A DNA stretch of 33,018 bases from a virus: IMG/VR virus record IMGVR_UViG_3300035698_003700, positions 1 to 33,018 of that record; one strand, given 5' to 3'. Below are positions 1,721 to 25,572 of the stretch, one piece after another. The translations under genes were made by a program, and so were the position numbers. The notes beneath the pieces were generated by a model. It saw nothing but the letters and a program-made list of their open reading frames with translations, made no database searches and was not told the DNA's origin. The number at the start of each line of letters is the position of its first letter. Positions within the stretch are counted from its first letter, which is position 1.

Positions 1721-3343
1721 TTATCTCTCACTAGCCGAAGTAATTCCGACATTTATAACACCACGCAATTGAAAATCTTTGCTTGAATCCTGGAACAATC
1801 TAAACCGGATTCGTCTAGACGATACGTCCAGTGGTTTTTTATATGTAGCCCAGTTGCTCGTAATGCTGACTGGTGAATCAACAAGCGTTATGTAGTTGTT
1901 TCCACCATCTGTTGAATACTGAATGCCAATGGATGCAGAAGCTATAGTTGATAGACACTCGAATGATACCCAGATTGATCTGAATATATTCTCAGCAGGA
2001 TCAAGTCGAATGTCTTCAGTAACATAGTGACAAGATATATCAGTGCCAGAATCTGTTCCAGTTTGTTCGTCTAGTTTGAAAACATATCCAGTGTCACTTA
2101 TAAAGCATGTGATCGGGTATCCTGATTCTCCAAACGAGTCATCACAATAAAAAGACACTTCATCGCAATAGTAAGTTGCATATGGTGCATCATCACAATA
2201 AGCTTCATCAGTAGATATTAATGGGTTTGTTCCTCGCATACTATGTGCAAATTCATAATACTCCCAAGGATTCCCAGGTAATGCATAGTTGATAACATAA
2301 AAGCTTTTTGGATAAGTACTAGAAGATGTCGGAAATCCGAAAAACAGTTTTTGTCTATTATAGTCTAAGTCACTTATGATCTTAGCTTTATTTGATACTG
2401 ACATTCTATCAAATAAGTCTTGAGATATGCTGTGTCCAATATCGACAATCTGTTTTCCGCCACGATATTGATAAATTCTTTGATCAGTTCCTAAGAAATA
2501 ATGTTGCCCATTTACTTTTGATACTGCACGATTCGCAAATAGTCCTGTGTCATTGATAACGGTCGGGCTATTAAATATCAGTGTTCCACCTACATACGAA
2601 ACACTAGTAATGCTAAATTCGCTATAAACTATTAGATCATATCCGAGCTTCATAGCTCGTTGAATATCGCCTATTGAATCAGTAAGATTAATTTCACCAG
2701 ATGTTCCTGATACCCACTCATCAATGTTGCCAGCACTCGAGTATGCAAAGTTCTTTACATGCTTAGCTGAGTCTGTAAAGTCCAGAATAAAAAAGTGATT
2801 CCAGAACTCTTCGATAGATCGAGCCGATGCAAAGCTAGTAAATCCAGTTGTCAGTGCCTGAAACTTATCATTAGATTGCCCTTCAAAGTAGAACATTTCT
2901 TCAACACCATTAGTTATTACTAGTGCTGTACCACCATTGTTAGTAAATTCTGCAGTATCAGTAGCTAAAGATATTATCCAATTATTATTTACATCACCAG
3001 TAAAATCTCCAGCAGCAGGTGTAATATCATCCCACTCATCATTACTAAAATCATAGTGATAAGCATTAGTTGTTGTCAATGCTATTAAATGTTCATTTCC
3101 TCTTGGATCAACATAAGATGTTAGTTCCATCCCAACACCAGTCAGTGGCAAACTAGTACATCCGACTTCAGTATAGCCAAGACGCTTTCGTATCCGTGTT
3201 CCGTCTATGACCATGTTCTTCATATCTGGACTATAGTTGCCTTCAAATCCCAGTGACTCGTCTCGGTTATTGATTCCACCGATTCGAGTTCCTGGAATAT
3301 TGTGTGCAACCGGTATAGTAATTGTACTATAGTCTGTAGCCAT
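1721..3343 (-). CDS. Large virion protein, probable tail hub/nozzle (beta-propeller-like)
   Basis: 540 residues. The start at 3343 overlaps the stop of the preceding gene by one base (TAATG). The N-terminus (MATDYSTITIPVAHNIPG, then NYSPDMKNMVIDGTRIRKRLGY) matches a layout common in podovirus tail hub or nozzle proteins, where an opening 'list of variables' segment ends in R-x-R-x-GY and is followed by repeated beta-rich blocks. The rest is rich in Y/F/W, Gly and beta-strand-like stretches with no membrane segment. P22 gp10 and T7 gp12 are the functional analogues I have in mind; I infer this from architecture and gene order (adaptor, small structural gene, this gene, tail fibre), not from a detected homologue. 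Cys-rich CDDxxxATYYCDE region at about residues 385-405 is unusual. Confidence 0.55.
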   Translation of the reverse strand: MATDYSTITIPVAHNIPGTRIGGINNRDESLGFEGNYSPDMKNMVIDGTRIRKRLGYTEVGCTSLPLTGVGMELTSYVDPRGNEHLIALTTTNAYHYDFSNDEWDDITPAAGDFTGDVNNNWIISLATDTAEFTNNGGTALVITNGVEEMFYFEGQSNDKFQALTTGFTSFASARSIEEFWNHFFILDFTDSAKHVKNFAYSSAGNIDEWVSGTSGEINLTDSIGDIQRAMKLGYDLIVYSEFSITSVSYVGGTLIFNSPTVINDTGLFANRAVSKVNGQHYFLGTDQRIYQYRGGKQIVDIGHSISQDLFDRMSVSNKAKIISDLDYNRQKLFFGFPTSSSTYPKSFYVINYALPGNPWEYYEFAHSMRGTNPLISTDEAYCDDAPYATYYCDEVSFYCDDSFGESGYPITCFISDTGYVFKLDEQTGTDSGTDISCHYVTEDIRLDPAENIFRSIWVSFECLSTIASASIGIQYSTDGGNNYITLVDSPVSITSNWATYKKPLDVSSRRIRFRLFQDSSKDFQLRGVINVGITSASER

Positions 3344-4134
3344 TATTGTGCCACCAATCCACCTATCCCATTAGGTATCCAACTATATTCAGATATACTG
3401 ATATTTGCTACAACTTTTACATAGTTGTCTTTTGGAACCGGAACCGTTACGCCACCCCAAGTATTGTCAGCATCTGCATCTTTACGTCTAACAGTTGTAG
3501 GGGGATTAAATGTATCAGCATAGCAGGATATATTACCAGCCCCACAATTTGCCATTACAAATCCATCAGCTTGAGCTTTGTAGACAGTGCTATTTGATAA
3601 TGCAGCCGCAACAGTATCAACTGCTGTATAGTCTCCGAATCTATTATTAATATTTACAGTCCCAGTTGAAGCAGCAATTGTAAAATCTGCTGTATCCAGT
3701 TGACCGACATGCATAGCCTGACCGGTCTGAGTTGCAGCGGCTACACTTGCAAGTACTCGTGATCCCATATCACAGTCAGTATCAGCCTGTAAACTTTGAA
3801 CAGCAACACGATTAAATCCTGTGCTGATACCAGCCGATGTTGCAATATAAACTCTTAGAAGATTGTCAGATCCAGTCAATATTGCCAATCTTCCATCATC
3901 AGATGTTGCCGATGTATCTAGACCATTGCCAGCTGGATCTGTACCTGGTGCAGCAGAGTCCAAGTATACTCGTGCAGAACCTTTAGAATGCTCGCCACCA
4001 GCATTGCTTGTAGATGGATTTACATGCTCTTTAGATATTACGATCTTAGCCATAGACGTGACGTCTCGGATTTCGCCGGGAATGCTTCCTATTAGCGTAT
4101 GATCTACTGGTTTGGTTACGTCCCAATCAGCCAT
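3343..4134 (-). CDS. Virion-associated structural protein, possible fibre/adaptor-associated
   Basis: 263 residues, starting MADWDVTKPVDHTLIGSIPG. The DHTLIGSIPGEIR opening followed by a 'GGEHSKGSARVYLDS' stretch is a pattern seen in many podovirus structural genes located beside the tail fibre. The remainder is Ala/Ser/Thr/Asp-rich, beta-like and lacks Lys-rich or membrane segments. The ribosome site AAGGAT lies a few bases upstream of ATG. A copy of the palindrome/CGAGCAA repeat (4145-4175) fills the whole gap between the preceding stop and this start. Its stop overlaps the next start, so translation of the two is probably coupled. Exact role unknown. Confidence 0.55.
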   Translation of the reverse strand: MADWDVTKPVDHTLIGSIPGEIRDVTSMAKIVISKEHVNPSTSNAGGEHSKGSARVYLDSAAPGTDPAGNGLDTSATSDDGRLAILTGSDNLLRVYIATSAGISTGFNRVAVQSLQADTDCDMGSRVLASVAAATQTGQAMHVGQLDTADFTIAASTGTVNINNRFGDYTAVDTVAAALSNSTVYKAQADGFVMANCGAGNISCYADTFNPPTTVRRKDADADNTWGGVTVPVPKDNYVKVVANISISEYSWIPNGIGGLVAQ

Positions 4135-4144
4135 TTTATTATCC

Positions 4145-4175
4145 TTTGCTCGTATTCATTTAATGAATATGATTA
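4145..4175 (-). repeat. Palindrome/CGAGCAA repeat, copy 1
   Basis: On the plus strand it reads TTTGCTCG then TATTCATTTAATGAATA then TGATTA. The middle part can fold as a 7-bp stem with a TTA loop. The 31 bases are identical to copy 2 at 13788-13818. It starts directly after the TGA stop of the adaptor gene (4176-4178) and leads into the ribosome site of the next gene. Related copies lie at 19493, 20104, 23058 and 30711. Its position fits either an intercistronic regulatory hairpin or an inserted palindromic element. Confidence 0.85.
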
Positions 4176-5711: not shown

Positions 5712-6803
5712 TTAATAACTCCTAACCGTTTCAATAATATGATCTAAGTTTTCTAAGTTTACCCACCATCCACAAGGAATACAAACTTGCCTTGAAGCAA
5801 AGCTATCTACTCCTGGCAATGGTCTGGCAAACTCACTAAATACTGTTTTGGTATGATTCGGCAGATGTACTCTGCTTGATTCAATATCTTTTGACTTCAT
5901 ATATGCAATGAAATCATCCGGATCATCTACTAGCATTGAGAACAGCCAATACGATGATACGCTGTGATACTCATAGTCCAGTAATTCTACTGTTGAAAGA
6001 TCCTTAAATGCTGATCTCATTTTCTCAGCATTAGATCGACTGGCATCCATAGTCCCATGAACATAAGAAAAGTTCTCTATTCCAATCGTAGCTGATATGT
6101 CGTTCATATGGAACTTATAGCCCCAGTCATACATATCCTGATAGCATCTCATGGATGAACCAGCATCCCGATCAAGATAGAACCAACGCATTTTCTTAGC
6201 TTCAACATACTTGTCGTGATTACTCAACAACAGTGCTCCACCGTCTCCGGTCGTCAAATGCTTAATAGCCTGAAAGCTAAAACAAACATAATCACCAAAG
6301 AATCCAACCGGGTTGTTTCTATAGTAGGATAAAAATGCATGAGCTGCATCTTCGATTATTGGAACATGATAATCATCTTTGAGCTTTCTTAGCTTTTGCA
6401 TATCACACGGGTAGCCTGCCCAATGAACACACATAATAGCTTTGACTGAAAACTGATCCAATAATTCTTTGACACTTTCCGGATCAATGTTGCCAGTTTT
6501 AGGATTAATGTCTGCCCAAAGTATTTTTGCTCCAAGTGACAGAATCGGCATATTGGTTGCAAGACAAGTCATCGGAGTTGATATTACATAGTCATTATGC
6601 CCTACACCTGCAAGCCTCAATGCTAACGTAATCGCAGCCGTTCCACTATTAGTCGCTACTACACGCGGATTACCAACATTGTCTGCAACTAATGTTTCAA
6701 ATCTTTTTACTTGTGGCCCTTCACCAACATAGCCGGACTCTAGAACTGGTTTTAATTTCTTAGTTACATTCGGACTCATTGTTACTTTAAATAGAGGTAT
6801 CAT
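5712..6803 (-). CDS. DegT/DnrJ/EryC1-type PLP-dependent sugar aminotransferase
   Basis: 363 residues, close to the usual size of the DegT/DnrJ/EryC1/StrS family. These enzymes use PLP to move an amino group from glutamate to a nucleotide-linked keto-sugar. Visible landmarks are YVGEGPQVKRFE (residues 25-36), NSGTAAITLAL near 52-62 (phosphate cup), the EDAAHAF motif at 151-157 whose Asp152 should pair with the PLP ring nitrogen, and SFQAIKHLTTGDGG at 176-189 with Lys181 as the expected Schiff-base lysine. The key residues are therefore intact. It is the last gene of a four-gene sugar cassette inside the virion operon, and its start overlaps the methyltransferase stop (TAATG). Substrate unknown. 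Confidence 0.88.
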   Translation of the reverse strand: MIPLFKVTMSPNVTKKLKPVLESGYVGEGPQVKRFETLVADNVGNPRVVATNSGTAAITLALRLAGVGHNDYVISTPMTCLATNMPILSLGAKILWADINPKTGNIDPESVKELLDQFSVKAIMCVHWAGYPCDMQKLRKLKDDYHVPIIEDAAHAFLSYYRNNPVGFFGDYVCFSFQAIKHLTTGDGGALLLSNHDKYVEAKKMRWFYLDRDAGSSMRCYQDMYDWGYKFHMNDISATIGIENFSYVHGTMDASRSNAEKMRSAFKDLSTVELLDYEYHSVSSYWLFSMLVDDPDDFIAYMKSKDIESSRVHLPNHTKTVFSEFARPLPGVDSFASRQVCIPCGWWVNLENLDHIIETVRSY

Positions 6804-11439: not shown

Positions 11440-11643
11440 CTATTGTGCCTTTCTTGTTAGATCCTTCTTAATCTGATTTCTTCTGAACTCCCTGATTGAT
11501 TCACGCCGTTCTAGCTCAATTGCTCTCAAGAGTCTTGTTAACTCCCTTTTGCTAATATGCCCACCTAATATCTTAACAATCGGAGCACCAGCTGGTGTGA
11601 AACTACAGACTATTTTTCGTTCATCTACTTGTTGCTTCGCCAT
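11440..11643 (-). CDS. Small basic protein, unknown
   Basis: 67 residues, start MAKQQVDERKIVCSFTPAG. The C-terminal half is a highly charged helix (ISKRELTRLLRAIELERRES, then Arg/Lys-rich). No known motif. It lies between zinc ribbon and scaffold with gaps of 9 and 1 bases. A packaged or assembly-related helper is possible. Confidence 0.45.
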   Translation of the reverse strand: MAKQQVDERKIVCSFTPAGAPIVKILGGHISKRELTRLLRAIELERRESIREFRRNQIKKDLTRKAQ

Positions 11644-13787: not shown

Positions 13788-13818
13788 TTTGCTCGTATTC
13801 ATTTAATGAATATGATTA
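13788..13818 (-). repeat. Palindrome/CGAGCAA repeat, copy 2
   Basis: Identical over 31 bases to copy 1 at 4145-4175. Its outer end includes the large-terminase stop codon (TTA on plus at 13816-13818), and it leads straight into the 58-aa ORF ahead of the portal gene. Same orientation relative to transcription as copies 1 and 4. Confidence 0.85.
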
Positions 13819-17010: not shown

Positions 17011-17463
17011 TCAGTCTCTATCTAAGTTTAATGTCTCTTTTATCAATGCTATGGTTTCGATATTGAGATTTACGAGTGGCATATTAGTGTGCAAAGATGT
17101 TTCGTTCTTTGTTACTTTTCCTAGTCCCGACCTGTCCAGGATCGATTCGGACGACCTTATAGCTATGTTTTCGTTATCAGAATGCATTCCAGCTGTGAGA
17201 CGCTTTACTGCTGCTTTTGTCTGCAATCGCAGCTGCTCCATAGCTTCGGTTTCATGCCGAACAATCTTTTCAGTTTCATTGTTATTAAGTTGTGTTTGTT
17301 TCTTTTCTAGTTCGTGTTTAAAAATCGGGCTATTTACGATCCTGCAGATTGAGGCCGGAGTATGTTGGACCTGTTCAGCTATTGTTGATTGGTTCATTCC
17401 GGTCAGATATAGACGCATTATTTTGTGATGAGTCGGGTTGAGTTCGAGGATATCTTGTTGCAT
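17011..17463 (-). CDS. Terminase small subunit
   Basis: 150 residues. Residues 10-50 form a helix-turn-helix (HHKIMRLYLTGMNQSTIAEQ, then VQHTPASICRIVNSPIFKHE) of the kind that binds pac/cos DNA. A helical segment with ELEKKQTQLNNNETEKIVRH follows, and then a C-terminal oligomerisation-type part. First gene of the late block and upstream of the large subunit. The ribosome site is weak (AAGAG). The adjacent hairpin array (17480-17945) could include its packaging site or promoter, which I cannot distinguish. Confidence 0.75.
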   Translation of the reverse strand: MQQDILELNPTHHKIMRLYLTGMNQSTIAEQVQHTPASICRIVNSPIFKHELEKKQTQLNNNETEKIVRHETEAMEQLRLQTKAAVKRLTAGMHSDNENIAIRSSESILDRSGLGKVTKNETSLHTNMPLVNLNIETIALIKETLNLDRD

Positions 17464-17945
17464 TTTAAACTCTTTGGCGATTTGATGCTTTTCGGTGGGT
17501 TCGGCTCCGCCTCCCAGGTCAGTTAATAAAAAATAGGTAAAAATCGGGGTTATTTTGTTTTGAAATTTTTATATTGCGTAGCAATATATGCTCATTGTTT
17601 GGGGACGGCTACGCCGACTCCGGGAGTTAAATATAAATCTGTAAAAATCGGGCTTTTTATATTTATTATGTTGCGTAGCAACATTGAGTGTACGAATACG
17701 AAGGCTACGCCTTCTTTTCCCGGATGATAAAAAATTTTAATATGTTACGCAGTAACATTTCGCTTTGATGACGAATACGGTGCTACGCACCTTTTCCCGG
17801 CTTATAATAAAATCTACAAAAATCGGGCTTCGTTGAACAGAGTTCATTTGATGATATTATTGGAAATTTTTAATATTGCATAGCAATATAAAATAAAAAA
17901 TTTTTATTTTTTATAGCAACCTTTAACGGTTTGCTTGCAAACCCT
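17464..17945. repeat. Array of short triloop hairpins upstream of late operon
   Basis: About 480 bases without a gene. It contains ATATTGC-GTA-GCAATAT (17571-17587), CGGC-TAC-GCCG (17606-17616), ATGTTGC-GTA-GCAACAT (17668-17684), GAAGGC-TAC-GCCTTC (17700-17714), ATGTTAC-GCA-GTAACAT (17742-17758), GGTGC-TAC-GCACC (17779-17791), ATATTGC-ATA-GCAATAT (17873-17889) and GGTTTGC-TT-GCAAACC (17928-17943). Two hairpins are framed by the same flanks, ACGAATACG before and TTTTCCCGG after. AAAAATCGGG appears at 17541, 17643 and 17818. The late promoter must lie in or near here, but no clear sigma70 pair was seen. Confidence 0.85.
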
Positions 17946-18136
17946 AGTATTCTATAGGTGTTTTTTGCTTTTGATATAAATTTAAATAGTTTGCTAGTAT
18001 CTCCAATCGACGACCCCCATGGGGGGTTTTATAAATGAAGCGTTGATGTGATTATAATCACAATACCCCTGGCGTGATTCCATGCACAATATTAATCCAG
18101 TGCTGTTGGGATTATAATCACAACAATATTTCGGCC
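17946..18136. promoter_or_regulatory. Intergenic stretch with twin palindromic operator-like sites
   Basis: Gene-free. TGTGATTATAATCACA at 18047-18062 is a perfect 16-bp palindrome; a near copy, TTGGGATTATAATCACAA, lies at 18106-18123. Their centres are exactly 60 bases apart. A second palindrome, CCCCCATGGGGG at about 18014-18025, is followed by TTTT on the plus strand. Paired symmetric sites suggest binding by a dimeric repressor or activator, perhaps acting on the late promoter. Confidence 0.5.
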
Positions 18137-18162
18137 AAATAAAAAAGGACGCCGAAGCGTCC
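18137..18162 (-). terminator. Rho-independent terminator of the mini-operon
   Basis: On the minus strand GGACGC-TTCG-GCGTCC forms a 6-bp GC-rich stem with a TTCG tetraloop, followed by TTTTTT ATTT. It lies 36 bases beyond the stop of the 83-aa gene. A 60-codon open frame crossing it is not a gene. Confidence 0.9.
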
Positions 18163-18197
18163 CATTTTACGATCATGTTTCACGATTTATTCATCGG

Positions 18198-18449
18198 TCA
18201 ACATGTTACCAATGAATCCTCCGGCGCTAGGATTAAATCCGATGCTGGACATTCACATTCACAAACAGAATTACCGTTAGCATCAATTCTCGAACAATTC
18301 AAACCAGACCCATCATTATACATTTTGCCAGTGGATTCACCACCAAAGAATATTGAGCGTGAACCATTATAATGTGTATCAAATGCGATTGATTTACACG
18401 ACCATCGTAAATTGGCATGGTTTTTACATGTTAGGATTCTATGCCGCAT
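18198..18449 (-). CDS. Small Cys-rich protein, unknown
   Basis: 83 residues, start MRHRILTCKNHANLRWSCKS. The start overlaps the preceding stop by one base (TAATG), which supports real, coupled translation. Seven Cys, including CECEC near residue 65, and an early C-x-x-H suggest metal binding. No family recognised. Last gene of the mini-operon, directly before its terminator. Confidence 0.55.
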   Translation of the reverse strand: MRHRILTCKNHANLRWSCKSIAFDTHYNGSRSIFFGGESTGKMYNDGSGLNCSRIDANGNSVCECECPASDLILAPEDSLVTC

Positions 18450-18895
18450 TATTGGTCACCACCTTCCGTATCATCAACCACAATTTCCGATTTGCCAATT
18501 TGATCATCCAAGCGTACGTTTCCATTTGGTGCAATGTGTATCAATTGAATTTCATTGTTCGCACGTTCGTTCGACCACAATTGTTTGGCCTTCGCCAGCG
18601 CTTTTGACATGTCCGGTTGGTCGGAAACCCGTGACCAATATTGATCCAACATCTTTGGCGTCCATTTGGCGCTGATGCCATTCCGCACCTTGGATTGCGT
18701 ATCAACAGCGCATCCGGACGTAATCCATGACACGCATTGGTCATTGGTCACGATGCCAGCGTCAATCATCGTGGCAATTTGTTCGGCGATATCACGGGAT
18801 TCGAACGTTGGTACATACGCGTATCCAGCGTTTTCCTTGCCCAATTTTGTCAATCGCACGGTGTAATTAATATCATTGATAATTGTTGTTTTCAT
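18449..18895 (-). CDS. 148-aa protein of mini-operon, unknown
   Basis: Start MKTTIINDINYTVRLTKLGK with a strong AAGGAGT nine bases upstream. Mixed alpha/beta composition, an acidic tail (VVDDTEGGDQ), no membrane segment and no motif that I recognise. Codon use stands out: Leu is nearly always TTG and Gln always CAA, unlike the flanking phage genes, which use CTA/TTA/CTG and CAG freely. That points to recent acquisition from another genome. Possibly a regulator or host-interaction protein expressed separately from both main blocks. Confidence 0.7.
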   Translation of the reverse strand: MKTTIINDINYTVRLTKLGKENAGYAYVPTFESRDIAEQIATMIDAGIVTNDQCVSWITSGCAVDTQSKVRNGISAKWTPKMLDQYWSRVSDQPDMSKALAKAKQLWSNERANNEIQLIHIAPNGNVRLDDQIGKSEIVVDDTEGGDQ

Positions 18896-18930
18896 TTTCG
18901 GTACTCCTTGATAAAAGTAGATATTTTAGG

Positions 18931-18946
18931 TTGACTACATTGTCAA
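18931..18946 (-). promoter_or_regulatory. Inverted repeat TTGAC-N6-GTCAA ahead of the 148-aa gene
   Basis: The 16-bp symmetric site lies between the 49-aa and 148-aa genes. On the minus strand it also presents TTGACA, a consensus -35 hexamer, but the -10 candidate 17 bases on (TATCTA) is poor. Could be an operator or a secondary promoter. Confidence 0.4.
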
Positions 18947-18948
18947 CA

Positions 18949-19098
18949 CTATTTGTTTCGATATTCTTTAATTTTCAATGCCATGGCGTCACGCATTAAA
19001 GGATATCGGAATTTATCCAAATGCCCACGGTCACGCCATATCCTTAGTGCATGTAAAATTGTACCACGTTTAATTAATTGTCGCCTTTTCGTGTCCAT
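18949..19098 (-). CDS. 49-aa basic protein, first gene of mini-operon
   Basis: Reads MDTKRRQLIKRGTILHALRI, then WRDRGHLDKFRYPLMRDAMA, ending KEYRNK. AAAGGAAAC lies upstream of ATG 19098 with good spacing, and a near-consensus promoter sits 54-82 bases upstream. Strongly basic and helical; a small DNA- or RNA-binding regulator is possible. Too short to appear in common ORF listings. Confidence 0.6.
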   Translation of the reverse strand: MDTKRRQLIKRGTILHALRIWRDRGHLDKFRYPLMRDAMALKIKEYRNK

Positions 19099-19151
19099 AA
19101 TGTTTCCTTTTATTAAATTATCAATTGCGCTTCATATTCTTTATATCGGCC

Positions 19152-19180
19152 ATTTTAATTCAATACTTGAATCCTGTCAA
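19152..19180 (-). promoter_or_regulatory. Sigma70 promoter of the mini-operon
   Basis: On the minus strand TTGACA (19180-19175), a 17-base spacer, then TAAAAT (19157-19152). The -35 is perfect and the -10 matches five of six. It drives the 49-, 148- and 83-aa genes. Confidence 0.8.
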
Positions 19181-19235
19181 CCACTAAATAAAAAAGTTTT
19201 CAATATTCTTTACAATCCTCGTTTTTAGCGTCATA

Positions 19236-19267
19236 ACGCACATTGGTGATTTAAACCCGTTGTGCGT
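19236..19267. repeat. Inverted repeat ACGCACA/TGTGCGT
   Basis: Seven-base arms separated by 18 bases in the gene-free region between mini-operon promoter and origin-like core. No T-run, so not a terminator. Confidence 0.5.
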
Positions 19268-19345
19268 GCCGTGGATGGATTTTAACCCATGACCCATACC
19301 AATCATCCCATCGGCATCCGATCGGCCGCTACACGCGATTTCGCT

Positions 19346-19472
19346 ATGTCACGATATTCTATGGTATTGTCGATACGCTATTGTTACAATATCGTGACAT
19401 CATTGCCGACACAGATTATATTAAATCTTTGCTATCCACAATACACTATTGTTATTTGACAACTATCCACGA
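19346..19472. other. Origin-like segment: 13-bp inverted repeat plus DnaA-box-like sites
   Basis: ATGTCACGATATT (19346-19358) and its exact complement AATATCGTGACAT (19388-19400) enclose a 29-base loop. CTATCCACA (19432-19440, one base from the DnaA box complement TTATCCACA) and CTATCCACG (19463-19471) follow, and CGATCCACA lies at 19751. A minus-strand TATAAT at 19415-19420 might transcribe across the repeat. Together these resemble the parts of a theta origin, but function is unproven. Confidence 0.4.
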
Positions 19473-19492
19473 ATCGGTGCGAAACAAAACCC

Positions 19493-19514
19493 TGCTCGTT
19501 TTCATTTAATGAAA
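19493..19514 (-). repeat. Palindrome/CGAGCAA repeat, copy 3 (diverged)
   Basis: Plus strand reads TGCTCG then TTTTCATTTAATGAAA. Same layout as the other copies but with T for A at one arm position and its complement changed, so pairing is kept (TTTCAT/ATGAAA). Not next to a gene; it lies in the origin-like region. Confidence 0.7.
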
Positions 19515-19630
19515 GGCTTGGATCGGATTTGGACGGGGGGACAATTGTTCACGTCCAATCTGGGGCCCGTAACATGGCCGCCAGTCGCCAAACATTCATC
19601 GGATGTATATTGGCCGGGGGCCTGGTAAAA

Positions 19631-19672
19631 AACCCGTTAAATCGGGCTATAGGCCCGATGTTAAAATGGGTT
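19631..19672. repeat. Large hairpin in G-rich segment
   Basis: ATCGGGC (19641-19647) pairs with GCCCGAT (19653-19659) over a TATAG loop, and the outer AACCC and GGGTT arms pair as well. No T-run follows, so a structural or replication role is more likely than termination. Confidence 0.6.
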
Positions 19673-19690
19673 GCAAAATGTTAATATGGA

Positions 19691-19888
19691 TAGGGTAGTT
19701 CCGAGATGATCTGGGTACATTTGGGGTCAGCCCCCTCTGGTTGTAATTGTCGATCCACAATGTCGCCATTTAATCACCTATAAGTAGTTATTCTATATAT
19801 ATATATATTATATATATTTTATGTCCAGAATTATTGATTAGAGGGCACCCATCAAATGTACCCAGATGATCTTGATTATACTACCCTA
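19691..19888. repeat. Long imperfect inverted repeat centred on an AT tract
   Basis: AGATGATCTGGGTACATTTG at 19704-19723 matches the complement of 19853-19872 with a single mismatch. The match extends outwards (TAGGGTAGT at 19691-19699 against ACTACCCTA at 19880-19888) and, more weakly, inwards. The centre is a TA-repeat tract (19794-19820). The left arm side is G-rich and the right side C-rich, so the composition itself is mirror-symmetric. Candidate DNA-unwinding element or cruciform of the replication origin. Confidence 0.8.
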
Positions 19889-20029
19889 AACTACCCAATA
19901 TACGCCATTCACAACCCATTCCCGTTAAATCAACATTTTCCCCCATCAAAAAACACCCCATCATAAACCCGACATTCCCGACCCCGAATTAATATTCCAT
20001 TATTTTATTTTATTTTCCCATTTTTTCAA
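19889..20029. other. G-poor stretch upstream of early promoter
   Basis: No gene. The plus strand is strikingly poor in G, with repeated C-runs: CCCCATCA twice (about 19941 and 19956), ACCCGAC and ACCCCGA. These may be iterons or only the product of the skew seen in the neighbouring inverted repeat. Confidence 0.4.
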
Positions 20030-20058
20030 TTGACAAACCCCGATCATGCCGATATAAT
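20030..20058 (+). promoter_or_regulatory. Consensus sigma70 early promoter
   Basis: TTGACA (20030-20035), exactly 17 bases, then TATAAT (20053-20058): a perfect match to the bacterial housekeeping consensus. Start of transcription expected near 20065, about 100 bases before the first early gene. It should be active immediately on entry using host polymerase. Confidence 0.92.
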
Positions 20059-20071
20059 AAAGGAGCGTTAA

Positions 20072-20085
20072 AGAACACGTGTTCT
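20072..20085. promoter_or_regulatory. Palindrome AGAACACGTGTTCT, LexA-box-like operator
   Basis: Perfect 14-bp palindrome starting about 7 bases after the predicted start site. It contains GAAC-N4-GTTC, the core of the LexA/DinR box known from Firmicutes and Actinobacteria. Placed where a bound repressor would block the early promoter. It could equally be the site of a phage repressor. Confidence 0.55.
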
Positions 20086-20103
20086 CAATGCCCAATCTAT
20101 CCT

Positions 20104-20131
20104 ATCATATTCATTAAATGAATACGAGCAA
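20104..20131 (+). repeat. Palindrome/CGAGCAA repeat, copy 4
   Basis: ATCATATTCATTAAATGAAT followed by ACGAGCAA, in the 5' leader of the first early gene and in the same orientation to transcription as copies 1 and 2 (28 of 28 bases match the complement of these). Confidence 0.85.
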
Positions 20132-20150
20132 TCGGAATGTTCCATTCCGA
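20132..20150 (+). repeat. Triloop hairpin TCGGAATG-TTC-CATTCCGA
   Basis: Eight-bp arms with a TTC loop directly after repeat copy 4 and just before the ribosome site AAAGGAAAC of the first early gene. Near copies lie at 20702 (inside a gene) and 21856. Confidence 0.8.
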
Positions 20151-20164
20151 CAAAGGAAACAAAT

Positions 20165-20368
20165 ATGATTTACTGTTCAGCAAAATGCCCTGATTGTGAC
20201 GAAATTTGTGAATCTATCGAAGAGGCACTAGCTCATTGTGGCACTTATCAAACTCCTCCGTCTGATGTAGAAATAATATTTGTATGTGAAACTTGCGGAG
20301 AAGAATTCGATAAGCACTTCTTTGCTGGAGCTATGAAACACGACTATGACAAACACAAAAACAATTAA
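20165..20368 (+). CDS. Small zinc-finger-like protein, first early gene
   Basis: 67 residues, start MIYCSAKCPDCDEICESIEE, with AAAGGAAAC upstream. CPDC and a C2H2-like part (FVCETCGEEFDKHFF...H) give two likely metal-binding knuckles: Cys8/Cys11 and Cys41/Cys44 with later His. First gene after the consensus early promoter, so it is expected at once after infection. Such proteins often bind host proteins; no specific function known. Confidence 0.65.
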   Translation: MIYCSAKCPDCDEICESIEEALAHCGTYQTPPSDVEIIFVCETCGEEFDKHFFAGAMKHDYDKHKNN

Positions 20369-20372
20369 GCCC

Positions 20373-20391
20373 GGAAGGACGTAGTCCTCCC
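20373..20391 (+). repeat. Hairpin AGGAC-GTA-GTCCT after first early gene
   Basis: Five-bp perfect core (20376-20388), extended by GG/CC with one mismatch, and a GTA loop. No T-run. Member of the triloop family. Confidence 0.65.
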
Positions 20392-20404
20392 ATACAAATA
20401 GCAA

Positions 20405-20466
20405 AATATTGCTACAATGTTGCTACAATGTTGCTACAATGTTGCTACAATGTTGCTACGCAACAT
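20405..20466 (+). repeat. Five tandem 11-bp units ending in a triloop hairpin
   Basis: One AATATTGCTAC unit, then four AATGTTGCTAC units, then GCAACAT. The last unit plus GCAACAT forms ATGTTGC-TAC-GCAACAT, the same hairpin type as in the 17.5-kb array. So the 5' arm plus loop has been tandemly multiplied. Repeat number should vary between isolates. Confidence 0.95.
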
Positions 20467-20501
20467 AATAATCAATAACACTTTATTAAAGGAAACAAAA
20501 A

Positions 20502-21077
20502 ATGAACATCAAAAAAATAACATCAACAGCAACATTAATGGCACTCGGAGCATCAAGTTTTTATCTCGGAATAACAACTCAAAGAACTATCGTTGCCCGC
20601 TCGATTCCCAACATTGCAATACAAAAAACATCTAATGTTATTTCACAACATCAAAAAGCATCTAAACCTCGGGGCGTAGCCACGGGGACTCAGGTTGTCA
20701 ACGGAATGTACCATTCCGATCAACAATCATCTAATACTGAAAAGGCCTGGGCCAAAATAATCCAGGTCGAATCCCGTTCTGGCAAACATCCAAACACTTA
20801 CATCAAGCCCGGCTCCGCAGGTGACTTCGGAATAGCACAGATAACGCCGATCCTCGTCCAGGACTATAATCGAATATCAAAAACAAATGTTTACAAACAC
20901 AGTGACTGTATATCAGACGCAGTATCAAAAAACATATACAAAACAATAACTAACCATTATTACAAGAACGGAACCGTCGAGCAACTCTGCAGACTATGGC
21001 ACAGAGGCCCGAACAAAGCCCGACAATACGACAAGCTAGGAAATATTTACTGGAATAAATGTAAAAAGGTTCTGTAA
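20502..21077 (+). CDS. Membrane-anchored lytic transglycosylase (SLT-like)
   Basis: 191 residues. The N-terminus is Lys-led and then hydrophobic (residues 8-26), fitting a signal peptide or signal-anchor. Residues 35-78 are a polar linker. The catalytic part starts at about 80: AWAKIIQVESRSG places Glu90 as the expected general acid, GDFGIAQITP at 107-116 is the G-x-x-Q-x-x-P hallmark of goose-type/SLT enzymes, and LWHRGP at 165-170 takes the place of the usual YN-x-G loop. Cuts peptidoglycan; lysis or entry role. The linker contains a triloop hairpin (20702-20718) and a GGGGCGTAGCC element, as though short palindromes were inserted in frame. AAAGGAAAC ribosome site. Confidence 0.7.
   Translation: MNIKKITSTATLMALGASSFYLGITTQRTIVARSIPNIAIQKTSNVISQHQKASKPRGVATGTQVVNGMYHSDQQSSNTEKAWAKIIQVESRSGKHPNTYIKPGSAGDFGIAQITPILVQDYNRISKTNVYKHSDCISDAVSKNIYKTITNHYYKNGTVEQLCRLWHRGPNKARQYDKLGNIYWNKCKKVL
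20702..20718 (+). repeat. In-gene hairpin CGGAATG-TAC-CATTCCG
   Basis: Same arms as the intergenic hairpin at 20133-20149, with TAC for TTC in the loop. Lies in frame in the transglycosylase linker and encodes NGMYHSD. Confidence 0.9.
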
Positions 21078-21092
21078 CACATTAGTAGCACC

Positions 21093-21169
21093 GGGCGTTA
21101 CGGTTTGGCAACAGGTATGACCTAGGATCAGATACTGCTGCTGTGTTGGTTCGATTCCAACTGCGTCCA
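21093..21169 (+). other. tRNA-like element with canonical T-arm, incomplete fold
   Basis: The 3' part is GTTGG-TTCGATT-CCAAC (21145-21161), a perfect T-stem and T-loop, followed by TGCGTCC and A. A partner GGGCGTT lies exactly at tRNA distance (77 nt in total) and pairs in six of seven positions (two G-T). A D-like stem GGTT/GACC is possible, but no acceptable anticodon stem could be found. It may be a decayed tRNA, an unusual one, or the tRNA-derived half of an attachment site. Confidence 0.3.
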
Positions 21170-21207
21170 TTTTTAAATCAATATTATTTAACTAAAGGAG
21201 CAAAAAT

Positions 21208-21555
21208 ATGAACAATTTACAAACAAGACTAAACCAAGCAAATCAGGAAAAAGAAGAAATTATTAGCTACATCAATGAACTCAAACAACAAATTATCATA
21301 GAAAAAAATAACATAAAAGTAGGAGATCAAGTAACAATAAATGATCTATCATACAGTATTGGATTCGTAGATGATAAAGAAACAACTCAAGGCTTACATT
21401 GTACATCTACACCAGAACTTCTGACAGTAATAGGAGTTAATAAAAAAGTATGGACTGAAAGTAATGGTATTAGACATCTACTAGACATTGCTGTAACAGA
21501 TAATCATGGAAAATATGGGTTATTCCCGAAACGTTTCTGTAAAAAGATTCTGTAA
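21208..21555 (+). CDS. Unknown early protein with N-terminal coiled coil
   Basis: 115 residues, start MNNLQTRLNQANQEKEEIIS. Residues 1-35 are a likely coiled coil; the rest is beta-like. The last codons and stop (TGTAAAAAGATTCTGTAACA) are nearly identical to those of the transglycosylase gene, and the leader (21178-21200) is repeated before the next gene, so this unit looks like the product of local duplication. Function unknown. Confidence 0.55.
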   Translation: MNNLQTRLNQANQEKEEIISYINELKQQIIIEKNNIKVGDQVTINDLSYSIGFVDDKETTQGLHCTSTPELLTVIGVNKKVWTESNGIRHLLDIAVTDNHGKYGLFPKRFCKKIL

Positions 21556-21566
21556 CAACATAAAGT

Positions 21567-21607
21567 AGAATGTTCCGAGCAATAATCAATATTGTTCTGA
21601 ACATTCT
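21567..21607 (+). terminator. Long hairpin between early genes
   Basis: AGAATGTTC (21567-21575) pairs with GAACATTCT (21599-21607). Inside, GAGCAATA pairs with TATTGTTC, giving 17 pairs with one internal mismatch and a five-base loop. The downstream tract is not T-rich, so it may be a processing or regulatory hairpin rather than a terminator. The inner part contains CGAGCAATAAT, shared with 23817-23867. Confidence 0.5.
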
Positions 21608-21651
21608 TCTGTATATTGTTATCAATATTATTTAACTAAAGGAAAAAGATT

Positions 21652-21855
21652 ATGGCAACTATCAATGAAGTATCAAAAGCACTGGACAGAAGATCAGCAA
21701 ATATTGCGAAGCAATATCAAATTCAAGCCGCTCCAAAAACATCACTGAAGATCTGTACAATCTGCGGATTCAAGAAACGCGGGTCAAATCACGATCTCGG
21801 AGCACATCACACTAGCGGCAAGAATGGCAAACATTCTGTATTGTCTTGTAACTAA
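21652..21855 (+). CDS. Small Cys/His protein
   Basis: 67 residues, start MATINEVSKALDRRSANIAK. CTICGF and the later HHTSGKNGKH...C give a likely C2H2/C2HC zinc site. An in-frame triloop hairpin (21701-21717) codes for residues 17-22. Strong leader ACTAAAGGAAAAAG. Function unknown. Confidence 0.55.
   Translation: MATINEVSKALDRRSANIAKQYQIQAAPKTSLKICTICGFKKRGSNHDLGAHHTSGKNGKHSVLSCN
21701..21717 (+). repeat. In-gene hairpin ATATTGC-GAA-GCAATAT
   Basis: Same arms as the intergenic hairpins at 17571 and 17873, differing only in the loop, here inside a coding sequence. Confidence 0.9.
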
Positions 21856-21872
21856 CGAAATGTTCCATTTCG
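21856..21872 (+). repeat. Hairpin CGAAATG-TTC-CATTTCG abutting a stop codon
   Basis: Begins at the base right after the TAA stop (21853-21855), and its right end runs into the GAGGAG ribosome site of the next gene, so the hairpin could hide or expose that site. A decayed relative lies at 23797-23813, also right after a stop. Confidence 0.85.
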
Positions 21873-21884
21873 AGGAGATTAACA

Positions 21885-22130
21885 ATGACAACTAACGATA
21901 CTGAACATTTCGGAACTCCATGCAAGATACCCGAAATTCCGCTCGATCCTAAGATCTGTGATTGTGGCCGACAGATGAATATTCTATCAAACTGTGAAAA
22001 ATGTGGCCGAATAATATGCGGCTCTTGTTATGAGTTTGATAGCAAAGCTAATGATTATGTTTTTCTGTGTCCACAATGTTTTATTGAAAAATGCTCTTCA
22101 AAACTGGACTCTAAACATGAGAACTCATGA
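21885..22130 (+). CDS. Small double zinc-finger protein
   Basis: 81 residues, start MTTNDTEHFGTPCKIPEIPL. CDCG, CEKCGR, CGSCY and CPQCF knuckles form a treble-clef or B-box/RING-like pattern with about nine Cys. GAGGAG ribosome site. Possibly protein-protein or nucleic-acid binding; no known partner. Confidence 0.6.
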   Translation: MTTNDTEHFGTPCKIPEIPLDPKICDCGRQMNILSNCEKCGRIICGSCYEFDSKANDYVFLCPQCFIEKCSSKLDSKHENS

Positions 22131-22713
22131 ATTATTAAAACCAATTACAATAGCTCTGTTAAAGAACAACTATGAAGTGTTCTTGCCGATGCAAGCAAAC
22201 AACAGCATTGTATGTTCTAAAAACACTATACTGTATCACTGCAAAATGATCTGGGCAACAACAACAATAAATGATCCCAGTTCAATAATAAGTATTCCGG
22301 CTGCAACAGCTGAACCGGATTTTTTCAATTACAATTGGCTTCTAATACTGGATAGAACCGGATCTGTATGGCTTCTACCAATGGACTCTATTCACGATAG
22401 GAAAAAAATCCGACTTGGAAAATCCATAGATTGTCTAAAACTAGAAAACCGGCTAGATTCAGATAAAGAAATATCTAAATTTATTCCAAAGAGCCCGAAT
22501 AAACTAGATAAACCGATTGAATTTGAACCAGTAAGAAAAGGTGCAATCAGTGCTGACAATCTAGAATCTTTTGCAGCTAAAAACATTAGACCAATGAAAA
22601 GATCTGAAGTCGACAAGATGCACGAACAAATGCTAGATCTAAAAACTCCGGATAAAACCCATGATCTTGACACTGTGTCAAGCTATGATCAATTAGAAAA
22701 GTTAGACAACTAA
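22117..22713 (+). CDS. Possible inactive PD-(D/E)XK-type nuclease-like protein
   Basis: 198 residues from ATG 22117, which overlaps the upstream gene's stop region. A longer frame from 22030 would overlap it far more and starts with sequence that looks non-native. The first ~100 residues (HELLKPITIALLKNNYEVFL, WLLILDRTGSVWLLPMDSIH, KKIRLGKS) follow the strand order of the group-I-intron-type PD-(D/E)XK family, where 'G.y.v..P', a central Q-V-K motif and 'f.yl.vvd..g.vwliP' occur. Here the central acidic and Lys residues are not evident. The remaining 90 residues are charged and helical. Family placement is inference; catalytic loss would suggest a DNA-binding or decoy role. Confidence 0.4.
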   Translation: MRTHELLKPITIALLKNNYEVFLPMQANNSIVCSKNTILYHCKMIWATTTINDPSSIISIPAATAEPDFFNYNWLLILDRTGSVWLLPMDSIHDRKKIRLGKSIDCLKLENRLDSDKEISKFIPKSPNKLDKPIEFEPVRKGAISADNLESFAAKNIRPMKRSEVDKMHEQMLDLKTPDKTHDLDTVSSYDQLEKLDN

Positions 22714-22718
22714 AGGAA

Positions 22719-22733
22719 TGTTGCTTTGCAACA
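22719..22733 (+). repeat. Hairpin TGTTGC-TTT-GCAACA
   Basis: Six-bp arms, TTT loop, six bases after the previous stop and just before the AAAGGAAAC ribosome site of the next gene. Member of the triloop family. Confidence 0.8.
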
Positions 22734-22749
22734 ACTAAAGGAAACTATT

Positions 22750-23052
22750 ATGAAAAAGTTAAGCTATGAAGTTAAATTTAGATACACCACAGATGGAATG
22801 ATACCAGTTGGAATCAAATTCAACAAGGCTCCGAATCCAGAGATCATCAACATGCTAAAATCAGACAATTGGACATATGATCCAACCAAATCTATCTGGC
22901 ATCCGCTTGCAAATTCTAACTGCCTTTTTATACCACTGCTGTTGCCAGAAGCTGTAGCAAAAGTCAATGAGCCAAAAAAGGATCTTAGCTGGTTCGCTTG
23001 TCCTCATTGTGACAAGACTATTTTAGTTAGATCTCTTAATCAGGATCTTTAA
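22750..23052 (+). CDS. Unknown protein with C-terminal zinc knuckle
   Basis: 100 residues from ATG 22750, chosen because AAAGGAAAC precedes it; a start at 22726 adds eight residues that come from the hairpin region. Body FRYTTDGMIPVGIKFNKAPN, then WTYDPTKSIWHPL. FACPHC near the end is a CxxC pair with no second pair visible. Unknown function. Confidence 0.5.
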   Translation: MKKLSYEVKFRYTTDGMIPVGIKFNKAPNPEIINMLKSDNWTYDPTKSIWHPLANSNCLFIPLLLPEAVAKVNEPKKDLSWFACPHCDKTILVRSLNQDL

Positions 23053-23057
23053 TCCAT

Positions 23058-23081
23058 TTGCTCGTATTCATTAAATGAAAA
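23058..23081 (-). repeat. Palindrome/CGAGCAA repeat, copy 5
   Basis: Plus strand TTGCTCG then TATTCATTAAATGAAAA, identical over 24 bases to copy 6 inside a gene at 30711. Here it lies 5 bases after a stop, with the tail pointing away from transcription. Confidence 0.85.
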
Positions 23082-23092
23082 GGTCAAAAAAA

Positions 23093-23344
23093 ATGTTATC
23101 AGATGATATGAGAGCTATATCCAAAAAAGATACTCGACAATTCAACAATATCGAGCTAACCGAATCAGAACTCAATGATCAAATCTTCGAGGGTGGAATA
23201 GGCTATTGTATAGCTTGTGGAGAACAATCAAGCTTTGCCGAGCCAGACGCAAGACATTATAGGTGTGATTGTTGTGATGAGCGGCAAGTATTCGGACTTG
23301 AAGAGCTTATTATGATGAATCAGATTACAATCACAAATAACTAA
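23093..23344 (+). CDS. Small zinc-ribbon protein
   Basis: 83 residues from ATG 23093, preceded by AAAAGG at suitable distance. An in-frame ATG at 23075 lies within repeat copy 5 and is less likely. CIACGE and CDCCDE form a CxxC...CxxC ribbon (about 20 residues apart) with a His between. Function unknown. Confidence 0.55.
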   Translation: MLSDDMRAISKKDTRQFNNIELTESELNDQIFEGGIGYCIACGEQSSFAEPDARHYRCDCCDERQVFGLEELIMMNQITITNN

Positions 23345-23348
23345 AAAA

Positions 23349-23388
23349 GCTTCAACATATATCACTATGTTGTGATATATTACGAAGC
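23349..23388 (+). terminator. Bipartite hairpin with T-rich tail
   Basis: GCTTC/GAAGC and ATATATCAC/GTGATATAT arms with a TATGTT loop, followed within five bases by ATTTTTATT. Likely intrinsic terminator or processing site between early units. Confidence 0.55.
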
Positions 23389-23415
23389 ATATCATTTTTA
23401 TTAGGAGTTTCAAAG

Positions 23416-23796
23416 ATGCAAACAAAAGAATCAAAAGTAAGAACAGGCGGAGAGATTGTCGGAACAGTTCAACTACCAGTCTATGAGACAATGGACGAGC
23501 TGATTGAACTTGAAGATGACATTCGTATTCTGGCCTGTTTTAACCACGGAAACCACATTAGAATCCAAGGGAACGAGCGAGCAAAGTTCAGTGTCAAGGC
23601 TCTGACTAAAAAGACTCAGATGGAAATCGCGTTCAACCATGTTCTGAGTGCTGTATTGTCTCCCGAAGAGTACTCCGAATGTTGCACGGACTTCGCCAAG
23701 CTCAATGATGCAGTTTACAACAATGAAACTGTAGTCGAAGCTACTAAGGTCAAGTACAAAGAATTGCTTGAAGCTGGCCTAATCGACAACAGTTAA
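23416..23796 (+). CDS. Unknown early protein
   Basis: 126 residues, start MQTKESKVRTGGEIVGTVQL. An acidic ELIELEDDIRILACFNHGNH region is followed by helical sequence. No motif recognised. More GC-rich at third positions than its neighbours. TTAGGAG ribosome site upstream; flanked by terminator-like hairpins on both sides, so it may be separately expressed and abundant. Confidence 0.55.
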   Translation: MQTKESKVRTGGEIVGTVQLPVYETMDELIELEDDIRILACFNHGNHIRIQGNERAKFSVKALTKKTQMEIAFNHVLSAVLSPEEYSECCTDFAKLNDAVYNNETVVEATKVKYKELLEAGLIDNS

Positions 23797-23813
23797 CGAA
23801 CTGATTCATTTCG
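23797..23813 (+). repeat. Degenerate triloop hairpin directly after stop
   Basis: CGAACTGATTCATTTCG matches the hairpin at 21856-21872 in 14 of 17 bases and, like it, begins on the base after a TAA stop. Confidence 0.5.
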
Positions 23814-23814
23814 T

Positions 23815-23869
23815 CGGGCTGATCAAGTATAATGTACGAGCAATAATTCACATGTGCTTGATCAGCCTG
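23815..23869 (+). terminator. Strong hairpin with CGAGCAATAAT loop
   Basis: GGCTGATCAAG (23817-23827) pairs fully with CTTGATCAGCC (23857-23867), extended by two more pairs, and TTTATATTTT follows. The 29-base loop contains TATAATGTACGAGCAATAAT, echoing the tail of the palindromic repeats. Probable terminator with an embedded recognition element. Confidence 0.7.
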
Positions 23870-25110: not shown

Positions 25111-25572
25111 ATGCTTACTGAAGAAACACTATTAGCCATAGCAACTAAAGTTGCAAAGATCCTAAAGCTGCGTGGATCTAAGATCGAACTCGACGAGTTA
25201 CTGAACGAAGCTTATGTCTTCGCGAAAGAACACGACCGATCTGAGAACTATGCGGCTTATTGGGCTTATAAAGGAACGGCTAATCTAGCCTTCAGTACGA
25301 AGCGTAAACATGGACGAGACTATGAAAAAGAATTAGTCTATTGTAATAGTCACATAGATAATACTACGACTAATGTTGACGAAGTTTTCGATCTCATAAC
25401 TGCACTCAGTGACCCGAATAATCTAAGAATGATAGAACGACTGTTTCTGTTTCATATCTTTGTTGACAACATGACTATTGAAGAAATATCAGTCTATTAT
25501 ACTAAAGAATATTCAACAGTAGCTAAAATAATAAAATCAGCGAAACAAAAATTAAAGGAGATTCTAGAATGA
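25111..25572 (+). CDS. Sigma-factor-like protein
   Basis: 153 residues. Residues 25-75 (IELDELLNEAYVFAKEHDRS, AYWAYKGTANLAFSTKRKHG) follow region 2 of sigma70/ECF factors: acidic 'DL.nEa', then an aromatic helix and a basic end. Residues 105-152 (IERLFLFHIFVDNMTIEEIS, then STVAKIIKSAKQKLKEIL) follow region 4, with the helix-turn-helix and a basic final helix. Regions 1 and 3 are absent, as in ECF factors. It could redirect host RNA polymerase to phage late or middle promoters. Stop overlaps the next start (ATGA). Confidence 0.6.
   Translation: MLTEETLLAIATKVAKILKLRGSKIELDELLNEAYVFAKEHDRSENYAAYWAYKGTANLAFSTKRKHGRDYEKELVYCNSHIDNTTTNVDEVFDLITALSDPNNLRMIERLFLFHIFVDNMTIEEISVYYTKEYSTVAKIIKSAKQKLKEILE

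Follow-up and report, generated by a model that had tools for sequence, protein, structure and literature searches.

Dispersed repeats and the palindromes of the window

Small hairpins of one loop type, C(UUCG)G, with varied stems recur between the genes of phage T4, and proteins of the ParB family have dispersed operators that are palindromes of 13-16 bp (KorB OB sites, parS). The subject here is the set of short palindromes in IMG/VR virus record IMGVR_UViG_3300035698_003700, analysed whole (33,018 bases, hereafter the window), in which one family (F1) combines a symmetric dyad with a one-sided tag and three others (F2, F3 and F4) are small hairpins with 3-nt loops. These palindromes differ from the T4 hairpins in being triloops in DNA of either strand rather than an RNA tetraloop. 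The likeness to ParB-family operators lies in the dispersal of the palindromes and in a ParB-domain/DNA methyltransferase fusion encoded by the phage, which is a candidate only for binding the dyad, whereas the spacing between TTCA and TGAA is 5 in the F1 dyad as against 2 in parS.

Closer parallels are found among stoperators and REP elements. The stoperators of Cluster A (L5-type) mycobacteriophages are present in many copies across the genome, mostly off promoters, with a phage-specific spelling that drifts with kinship, and are asymmetric and oriented with transcription (PMC6550527). F1 is likewise a short motif dispersed in copies, largely in gaps between genes and off promoters, but F1-type sites are symmetric dyads, each genome having 2-8 of them with the tags in mixed orientation, and because of this symmetry and mixed orientation they are not classed as L5 stoperators; no immunity repressor, which in the L5-type system binds the sites and blocks elongation, was recognised in the partial record. 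REP elements tagged with GTAG or CGTC are 20-40 bp long, consisting of a palindrome and a one-sided tag with 6-9 bp stems, short loops and alternative complementary stem residues, and are mostly intergenic (PMC3733652). Length, palindrome with one-sided tag, stem size, short loops, alternative complementary stem residues and mostly intergenic position are shared by the palindromes of the window, which are however phage-borne; as they have very few copies and a stem foot that lacks both GTAG and CGTC, and as no RAYT transposase was found in the partial record or six relatives, they are not assigned to the REP elements. The promoters of the N4 virion RNA polymerase have a short stem and a 3-nt loop with a sheared G:A pair (PMC4496689).

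A clade-wide dyad at gene junctions

Comparison of related sequences suggests that F1-type sites are operators scattered along the genome for a DNA-binding protein that acts as a dimer, and not copied hairpins. In the window F1 (TTGCTCGTA followed by TTCATTWAATGAA; the commonest repeated word of the window is TTGCTCGTATTCATTWAATGAA) is present in six copies between 4.1 and 30.7 kb, with up to two mismatches, on both strands and once within a gene, where 0.00 copies are expected by chance (Table 1). The original prediction had described the palindromes as one dispersed set of perfect hairpins around 3-nt loops within positions 17464-23813, multiplied by copying or gene conversion of tiny palindromes. 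The TTCATTWAATGAA family proved not to be limited to that interval (4146, 13789, 19492, 20110, 23058 and 30711), three of the six F1 copies lying outside it, and the 3-nt loop fails as a shared design for F1, of which relatives conserve TTCA-N5-TGAA, pairing of the centre not being required. Some duplication of F1 inside the genome is likely because its copies are near-identical over 21-31 nt, including the asymmetric flank, and occur in both orientations; to this extent copying is supported, though not as one phenomenon covering every family, and a dyad found across the clade with half-sites constant within a phage and changed between phages fits a protein-binding site better than the free copying of a hairpin.

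The exact F1 word had no match elsewhere in IMG/VR. A search of GTDB genomes for a host carrying the F1 word gave one match, within a coding gene of a Planctomycetaceae metagenome-assembled genome (MAG) with no other family member, which was taken as chance. The F1 tag is TTGCTCG(TA), and F2-F4 have no shared stem foot. Two larger stem-loops, at 21565-21611 (GAATGTTC/GAACATTC) and 23813-23867 (GGCTGATCAAG/CTTGATCAGCC), each have the F1 tag CGAGCAAT in their loop but no dyad.

Relatives of the window were obtained through its terminase and capsid only, with a profile of seven terminases adding about thirty more. In relatives whose terminase or capsid proteins are 55-64% identical the F1 core is shared and the flank differs, each genome joining the core to a flank of its own (CATCC[AG]T with TTCATTWAATGAA in G002, GTTGCTAW with TTCAAWGTTTGAA in G001 and TAGCTCG with TTCATATAATGAA in L005). 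When the gaps of the relatives were searched for every four-base half-site (256 in all) at spacing 5, TTCA...TGAA ranked first with 42 sites, the next having 17 and the mean being 3.1. Over the whole set 51 of 74 TTCA-N5-TGAA sites are in gaps, with gaps accounting for about a tenth of the sequence, the mean for dyads of the same composition being 20.7, and the records of ten relatives hold the pattern 34 times against 3 for the reversed control. The dyads recur at equivalent junctions across phages, namely between the capsid and the next gene, between the terminase and the portal (also in L005 and L066) and in the leader before gene 3343-4134 (in the window, L029 and L030), with the tag oriented in both directions relative to the downstream gene. 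Within the window the core-only dyad at 19159-19171 occupies a classical operator position, in the spacer of a near-perfect promoter that serves the minus-strand control genes.

Alignment of 47 sites on their centre revealed half-sites of about 9 bp. No permutation paired the outer positions as often at offsets 7, 9 and 10, and at offsets 8 and 11 the pairing equalled that of the best permutation. The two innermost positions are often unpaired, and the 3-nt loop of F1 is therefore incidental. On the sense strand mispairs of the G.T type numbered 14 and those of the A.C type also 14 (offsets 1, 2 and 7-11, counted from the 47-site table). This balance fits a dyad in double-stranded DNA, whereas an RNA stem would be expected to favour G.U. 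The sites have the features of an operator for a dimer, namely two symmetric half-sites, conservation within a genome, a free centre and strand-symmetric variation.

Half-sites re-spelled from phage to phage

Within each phage the half-sites are uniform, reading CTTGTTCA in G012 and G014, CATATTCA in G015 and AGTATTTCA-like in G013. Where TTCA dyads are few or absent, relatives repeat a different half-site on a similar plan, TGTTA-N7-TAACA being present seven times in G003, ATATCC-N7-GGATAT five times in G016 and AATCTA-N5-TAGATT twice in G004. The best repeated dyad that an unbiased scan of gaps gave exceeded all shuffles in the window, G003, G012, G013, G014, G015 and G016, and stayed at chance level in G009 and G010, which are distant. 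Uniformity within a genome together with change between genomes would be the product of co-evolution between a protein and its sites. The reading of F1-type sites as dispersed operators is favoured because the half-sites are uniform per phage and changed between phages, the centre is free and there is no RNA-strand bias.

On this plan the operator would have the form TCRTATTCA-N5-TGAATAYGA, a 5-nt centre flanked by half-sites of about 9 bp, and would be repeated several times at gene junctions and in leaders. The protein, probably a homodimer encoded by the phage, would bind F1 as double-stranded DNA and once bound would tune or block transcription at many junctions together, with most dyads acting away from promoters in a stoperator-like manner. 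The specificity of the protein would drift along with its sites, giving each phage its own half-site spelling.

A small basic protein encoded late at 11440-11643 (-) has relatives in the compared records with TTCA dyads and in neither G003 nor G016. Its candidacy as the regulator by presence and absence rests on these two negative genomes only and is not pressed.

A separate layer of tiny palindromes

The excess of tiny perfect palindromes over chance is real in the window. Hairpins with perfect arms and a 3-nt loop were counted against 200 shuffles that keep local dinucleotides, giving 22 in 17464-23813 with arms of at least 6 bp (shuffle mean 2.43, maximum 6 of 200) and 15 with arms of at least 7 bp (mean 0.63, maximum 4), as the original prediction of an excess would have it; overlapping AT runs at 19797-19817 account for a few of the 22. 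On either side of this interval the record shows no enrichment (4 against 1.45 and 0 against 0.84 by shuffles). Density is 5.9 hairpins per kb in gaps and 0.27 per kb in coding sequence, the expected in-gene members being confirmed at 20702, 21701 and 30711.

All three predicted arm families were found at their sites, ATRTTGC/GCAAYAT (F2) at 17571, 17668, 17742 (TTAC/GTAA), 17873, 20450, 21701 and 22718, CGRAATG/CATTYCG (F3) at 20133, 20702 and 21856 with a one-mismatch copy at 23797, and GC-rich hairpins (F4) at 17503, 17607, 17700, 17779, 20376 and 20672, and identical arms do recur non-randomly with differing loops. Many loops outside F1 read GNA or TNC, so that one strand or the other has GNA; C-GNA-G triloops are known to form very stable DNA minihairpins. 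The palindrome set is nevertheless composite, being at least two things, F1 and a separate F2/F3/F4 layer.

Recurrence of F2 and F4 is partly local duplication, because eight members, four of the ATRTTGC type and four GC-rich, sit in the four diverged units of the array at 17495-17892; the four ATRTTGC-type hairpins there stem from local tandem duplication. Arm changes within F2 are both-sided in 4 cells and one-sided in 0, in an alignment picked for hairpin-likeness. Such paired changes would follow either from selection on the palindrome or from hairpin-templated repair. The F2-F4 layer may thus have been multiplied in part by local tandem duplication, with arm complementarity kept by one or other of these processes, and its members could be intercistronic stem-loops or the operators of a second protein. 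Copying as originally proposed remains plausible for F1 and for the array, and the interpretation is partly supported.

In the relatives the search recovered the F1-type dyad and F4-like hairpins (GGTGCTACGCACC and GGTGCTTCGCACC in G015), while F2 and F3 were found in this phage only, their exact words having no occurrence in relatives beyond chance-like cases. As clade-wide dyads F2 and F3 were rejected, TTGC-N3-GCAA being present once and AATG-N3-CATT not at all in the gaps of relatives. TGTTGC-TGGC-GCAACA, which occurs twice in G012, may be kin to F2 or chance. In IMG/VR exact F2 was matched in 8 contigs and the F2-F4 module in 3, in each case without the families and chance-like. A test for intrinsic terminators (GC-rich stem followed by a T run) picked out among the families only the hairpin at 22719, on the reverse strand and with a weak tail.

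Further palindromes and repeats were seen at other positions. A clear intrinsic terminator, GGGACGCTTCGGCGTCC with a T run at 18163-18146 (-), closes the control genes 18198-18895 and is in no family. A perfect 16-bp palindrome, TGTGATTATAATCACA at 18047-18062, has a partial second copy 60 bp away at 18107-18123 and is operator-like. The palindrome AGAACACGTGTTCT at 20072-20085 follows just after the early-operon promoter. A 15-bp exact inverted repeat (ATCTGGGTACATTTG/CAAATGTACCCAGAT) lies in the non-coding control region at 19709-19723 and 19853-19867, about 130 bp apart, and the word AAATCGGG(C/G)T at 17321, 17540, 17644, 17819 and 19639, near or inside the terminase small subunit gene, is a possible packaging or binding site.

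Table 1. Positions of the palindromes and associated features in the window
Feature	Position	Strand	Context
F1 copy 1, TTTGCTCGTATTCATTTAATGAATATGATTA	4145-4175	+	leader of gene 3343-4134 (-); 31-nt identity with 13788-13818
F1 copy 2	13788-13818	+	end of terminase large subunit (TerL) gene, TerL-portal gap
F1 copy 3, 2 mismatches	19492-19513	+	divergent control region
F1 copy 4	20104-20131	-	early-operon leader, downstream of promoter 20030-20058
F1 copy 5	23057-23081	+	gap before gene at 23075/23094
F1 copy 6	30711-30734	+	inside 3' part of gene 30454-30774, 45 nt before next start
Core-only dyad TTCAAGTATTGAA	19159-19171	-	fills 17-nt spacer of sigma70-like promoter TTGACA-17-TAAAAT, 19180-19152
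Tandem array, four diverged units, each F4 hairpin, AT spacer (and AAAAATCGGG in three) and F2 hairpin	17495-17892	+	upstream of late operon; from alignment and repeats
F2 hairpin TATATTGC-GTA-GCAATATA	17570-17588	+	
F2 hairpin ATGTTGC-GTA-GCAACAT	17668-17684	+	
F4 hairpin GAAGGC-TAC-GCCTTC	17700-17714	+	
F2 hairpin ATGTTAC-GCA-GTAACAT, compensated arm change	17742-17758	+	
F4 hairpin GGTGC-TAC-GCACC	17779-17791	+	same word in relative G015 at 6424
F2 hairpin ATATTGC-ATA-GCAATAT	17873-17889	+	
Sigma70-like promoter TTGACA-17-TATAAT, perfect	20030-20058	+	start of early operon
F3 hairpin TCGGAATG-TTC-CATTCCGA	20132-20150	+	before gene 20165
F4-like hairpin AGGAC-GTA-GTCCT	20376-20388	+	after stop at 20368
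F2 hairpin 20450-20466 with 5' arm and loop (AATGTTGCTAC, first copy AATATTGCTAC) tandemly repeated upstream	20405-20466	+	
F3 hairpin CGGAATG-TAC-CATTCCG	20702-20718	+	inside gene 20502-21077, before transglycosylase-like part
F2 hairpin ATATTGC-GAA-GCAATAT	21701-21717	+	inside gene 21652-21855
F3 hairpin CGAAATG-TTC-CATTTCG	21856-21872	+	directly after stop at 21855
F2 hairpin TGTTGC-TTT-GCAACA	22719-22733	+	gap before gene 22750
Degenerate F3 copy CGAACTG-ATT-CATTTCG	23797-23813	+	after stop at 23796
ParB-domain/DNA methyltransferase fusion gene	29039-30313	+	relatives in G003, G012, G013, G015, G016

Weighing the explanations

F1 is probably the window phage's version of a clade-wide dispersed operator, with F2-F4 forming a separate palindrome layer. 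Several points weigh against this. No cognate protein was identified, and the F1 copies of the window share the asymmetric tag TTGCTCGTA, which is more than a plain dyad requires. The unbiased scan did not exceed the shuffle maximum in G001, G002, G004, G017 and L067, and several relatives, though mostly short fragments, are without such a dyad. Most dyads lie away from sigma70-like promoters, 3 of 47 overlapping one as against 4.4% of random gap positions, and promoter operators are not the general case. For the F2 arm changes, the alignment was chosen for being hairpin-like.

It is possible, but doubtful, that the palindromes are intercistronic stem-loops of mRNA serving processing, stability or translation control, repeated since one recogniser serves all of them. 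Such a role would suit the hairpins that stand after stops and before ribosome sites, the several early-operon gaps that fold better than shuffles and the covarying arms of F2. It sits poorly with the equal G.T and A.C mispairs of the F1 dyads, with the weakness of the F1 stems as RNA (-3.7 kcal/mol), with a loop orientation that is mixed (GNA in the sense strand at 20376 and 21701, in the other strand at 20132, 20450 and 21856) and with the result of an Rfam search at gathering threshold, which gave 0 matches.

Small mobile or selfish palindromes (REP/RPE/SDR-like), self-copying, functionless and tolerated in gaps and protein linkers, are an unlikely explanation. The Y1 (RAYT) transposase PF01797 was absent from the record and six relatives in a search positive for the control genomes, although the record is partial and a RAYT could be host-borne; the stem foot lacks either REP tag, there are only 3-7 copies per family, and the F1 dyads stand at orthologous junctions of diverged phages on one plan across the clade. 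What speaks for mobility is the sharing of 21-31 nt with an asymmetric tag among F1 copies in both orientations, one of them in a gene, the presence of F2 and F3 members inside genes and an architecture of stem and one-sided tag as in REPs (PMC3733652).

Hairpin-templated replication error, in which quasi-palindrome correction and slippage would give perfect arms and tandem copies without selection, is an improbable explanation. It would account for the perfect arms, the compensated changes and the absence of one-sided intermediates, for the segment 20405-20466, which repeats exactly one arm and the loop of a hairpin, and for the four diverged units of 17495-17892, but it leaves unexplained the identical 7-3-7 geometry of unrelated families, the bias towards gaps and the clade-wide F1 dyad.

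It is very improbable that F2 and F4 are N4-type single-stranded hairpin promoters for a virion RNA polymerase, for although many resemble these in a short stem, C-G closure and a 3-nt loop that is GNA on one strand, that strand is mixed relative to transcription, where N4 promoters have conserved hairpins of 5-7 bp on the template strand of early genes, members lie in a tandem array and in genes, the early operon is headed by a perfect sigma70 promoter, and T7-type RNA polymerase (PF00940) was not found in the record or relatives, with the controls silent too and the record partial.

Genome context and candidate proteins

The terminase, capsid and other structural genes of the window are on the minus strand, the control region lies at about 17.5-20.2 kb, and the early genes on the plus strand include a Sak4-type annealing protein, an exonuclease, the ParB-domain/DNA methyltransferase fusion and a DNA polymerase. 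The related G012, with terminal repeats of 114 bases, is 44,970 bases long, so that the window probably covers some three quarters of a genome. In G012 the Sak4-type gene (35992-37836) is apparently split by an intein-like insertion (614 aa as against 250 aa in the window). Single-protein searches with the early proteins of the window gave no relatives, two early proteins had no match in phage or plasmid records, and a search of the window for tRNA found none.

For the operator reading of F1 the ParB-domain/DNA methyltransferase fusion at 29039-30313 and a sigma-like protein at 25111-25572 (PHROG sigma factor, E 4.8e-7) are candidate cognate proteins only. A tentative wider proposal is that the clade may have a global regulator acting on symmetric junction operators that are re-spelled per phage (TTCA-, TGTTA-, ATATCC- and AATCTA-type), a palindromic counterpart of the stoperators possibly read by the ParB-domain/DNA methyltransferase fusion.

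In the F2-F4 palindromes, a set small enough to be counted, selection can be weighed against hairpin-templated repair as the source of compensated arm changes. If the dyads are the sites of one co-evolving protein, a control circuit of phages known from metagenomes only would come with its sites and candidate proteins already at hand, and regulatory or immunity groups would be readable directly from contigs.

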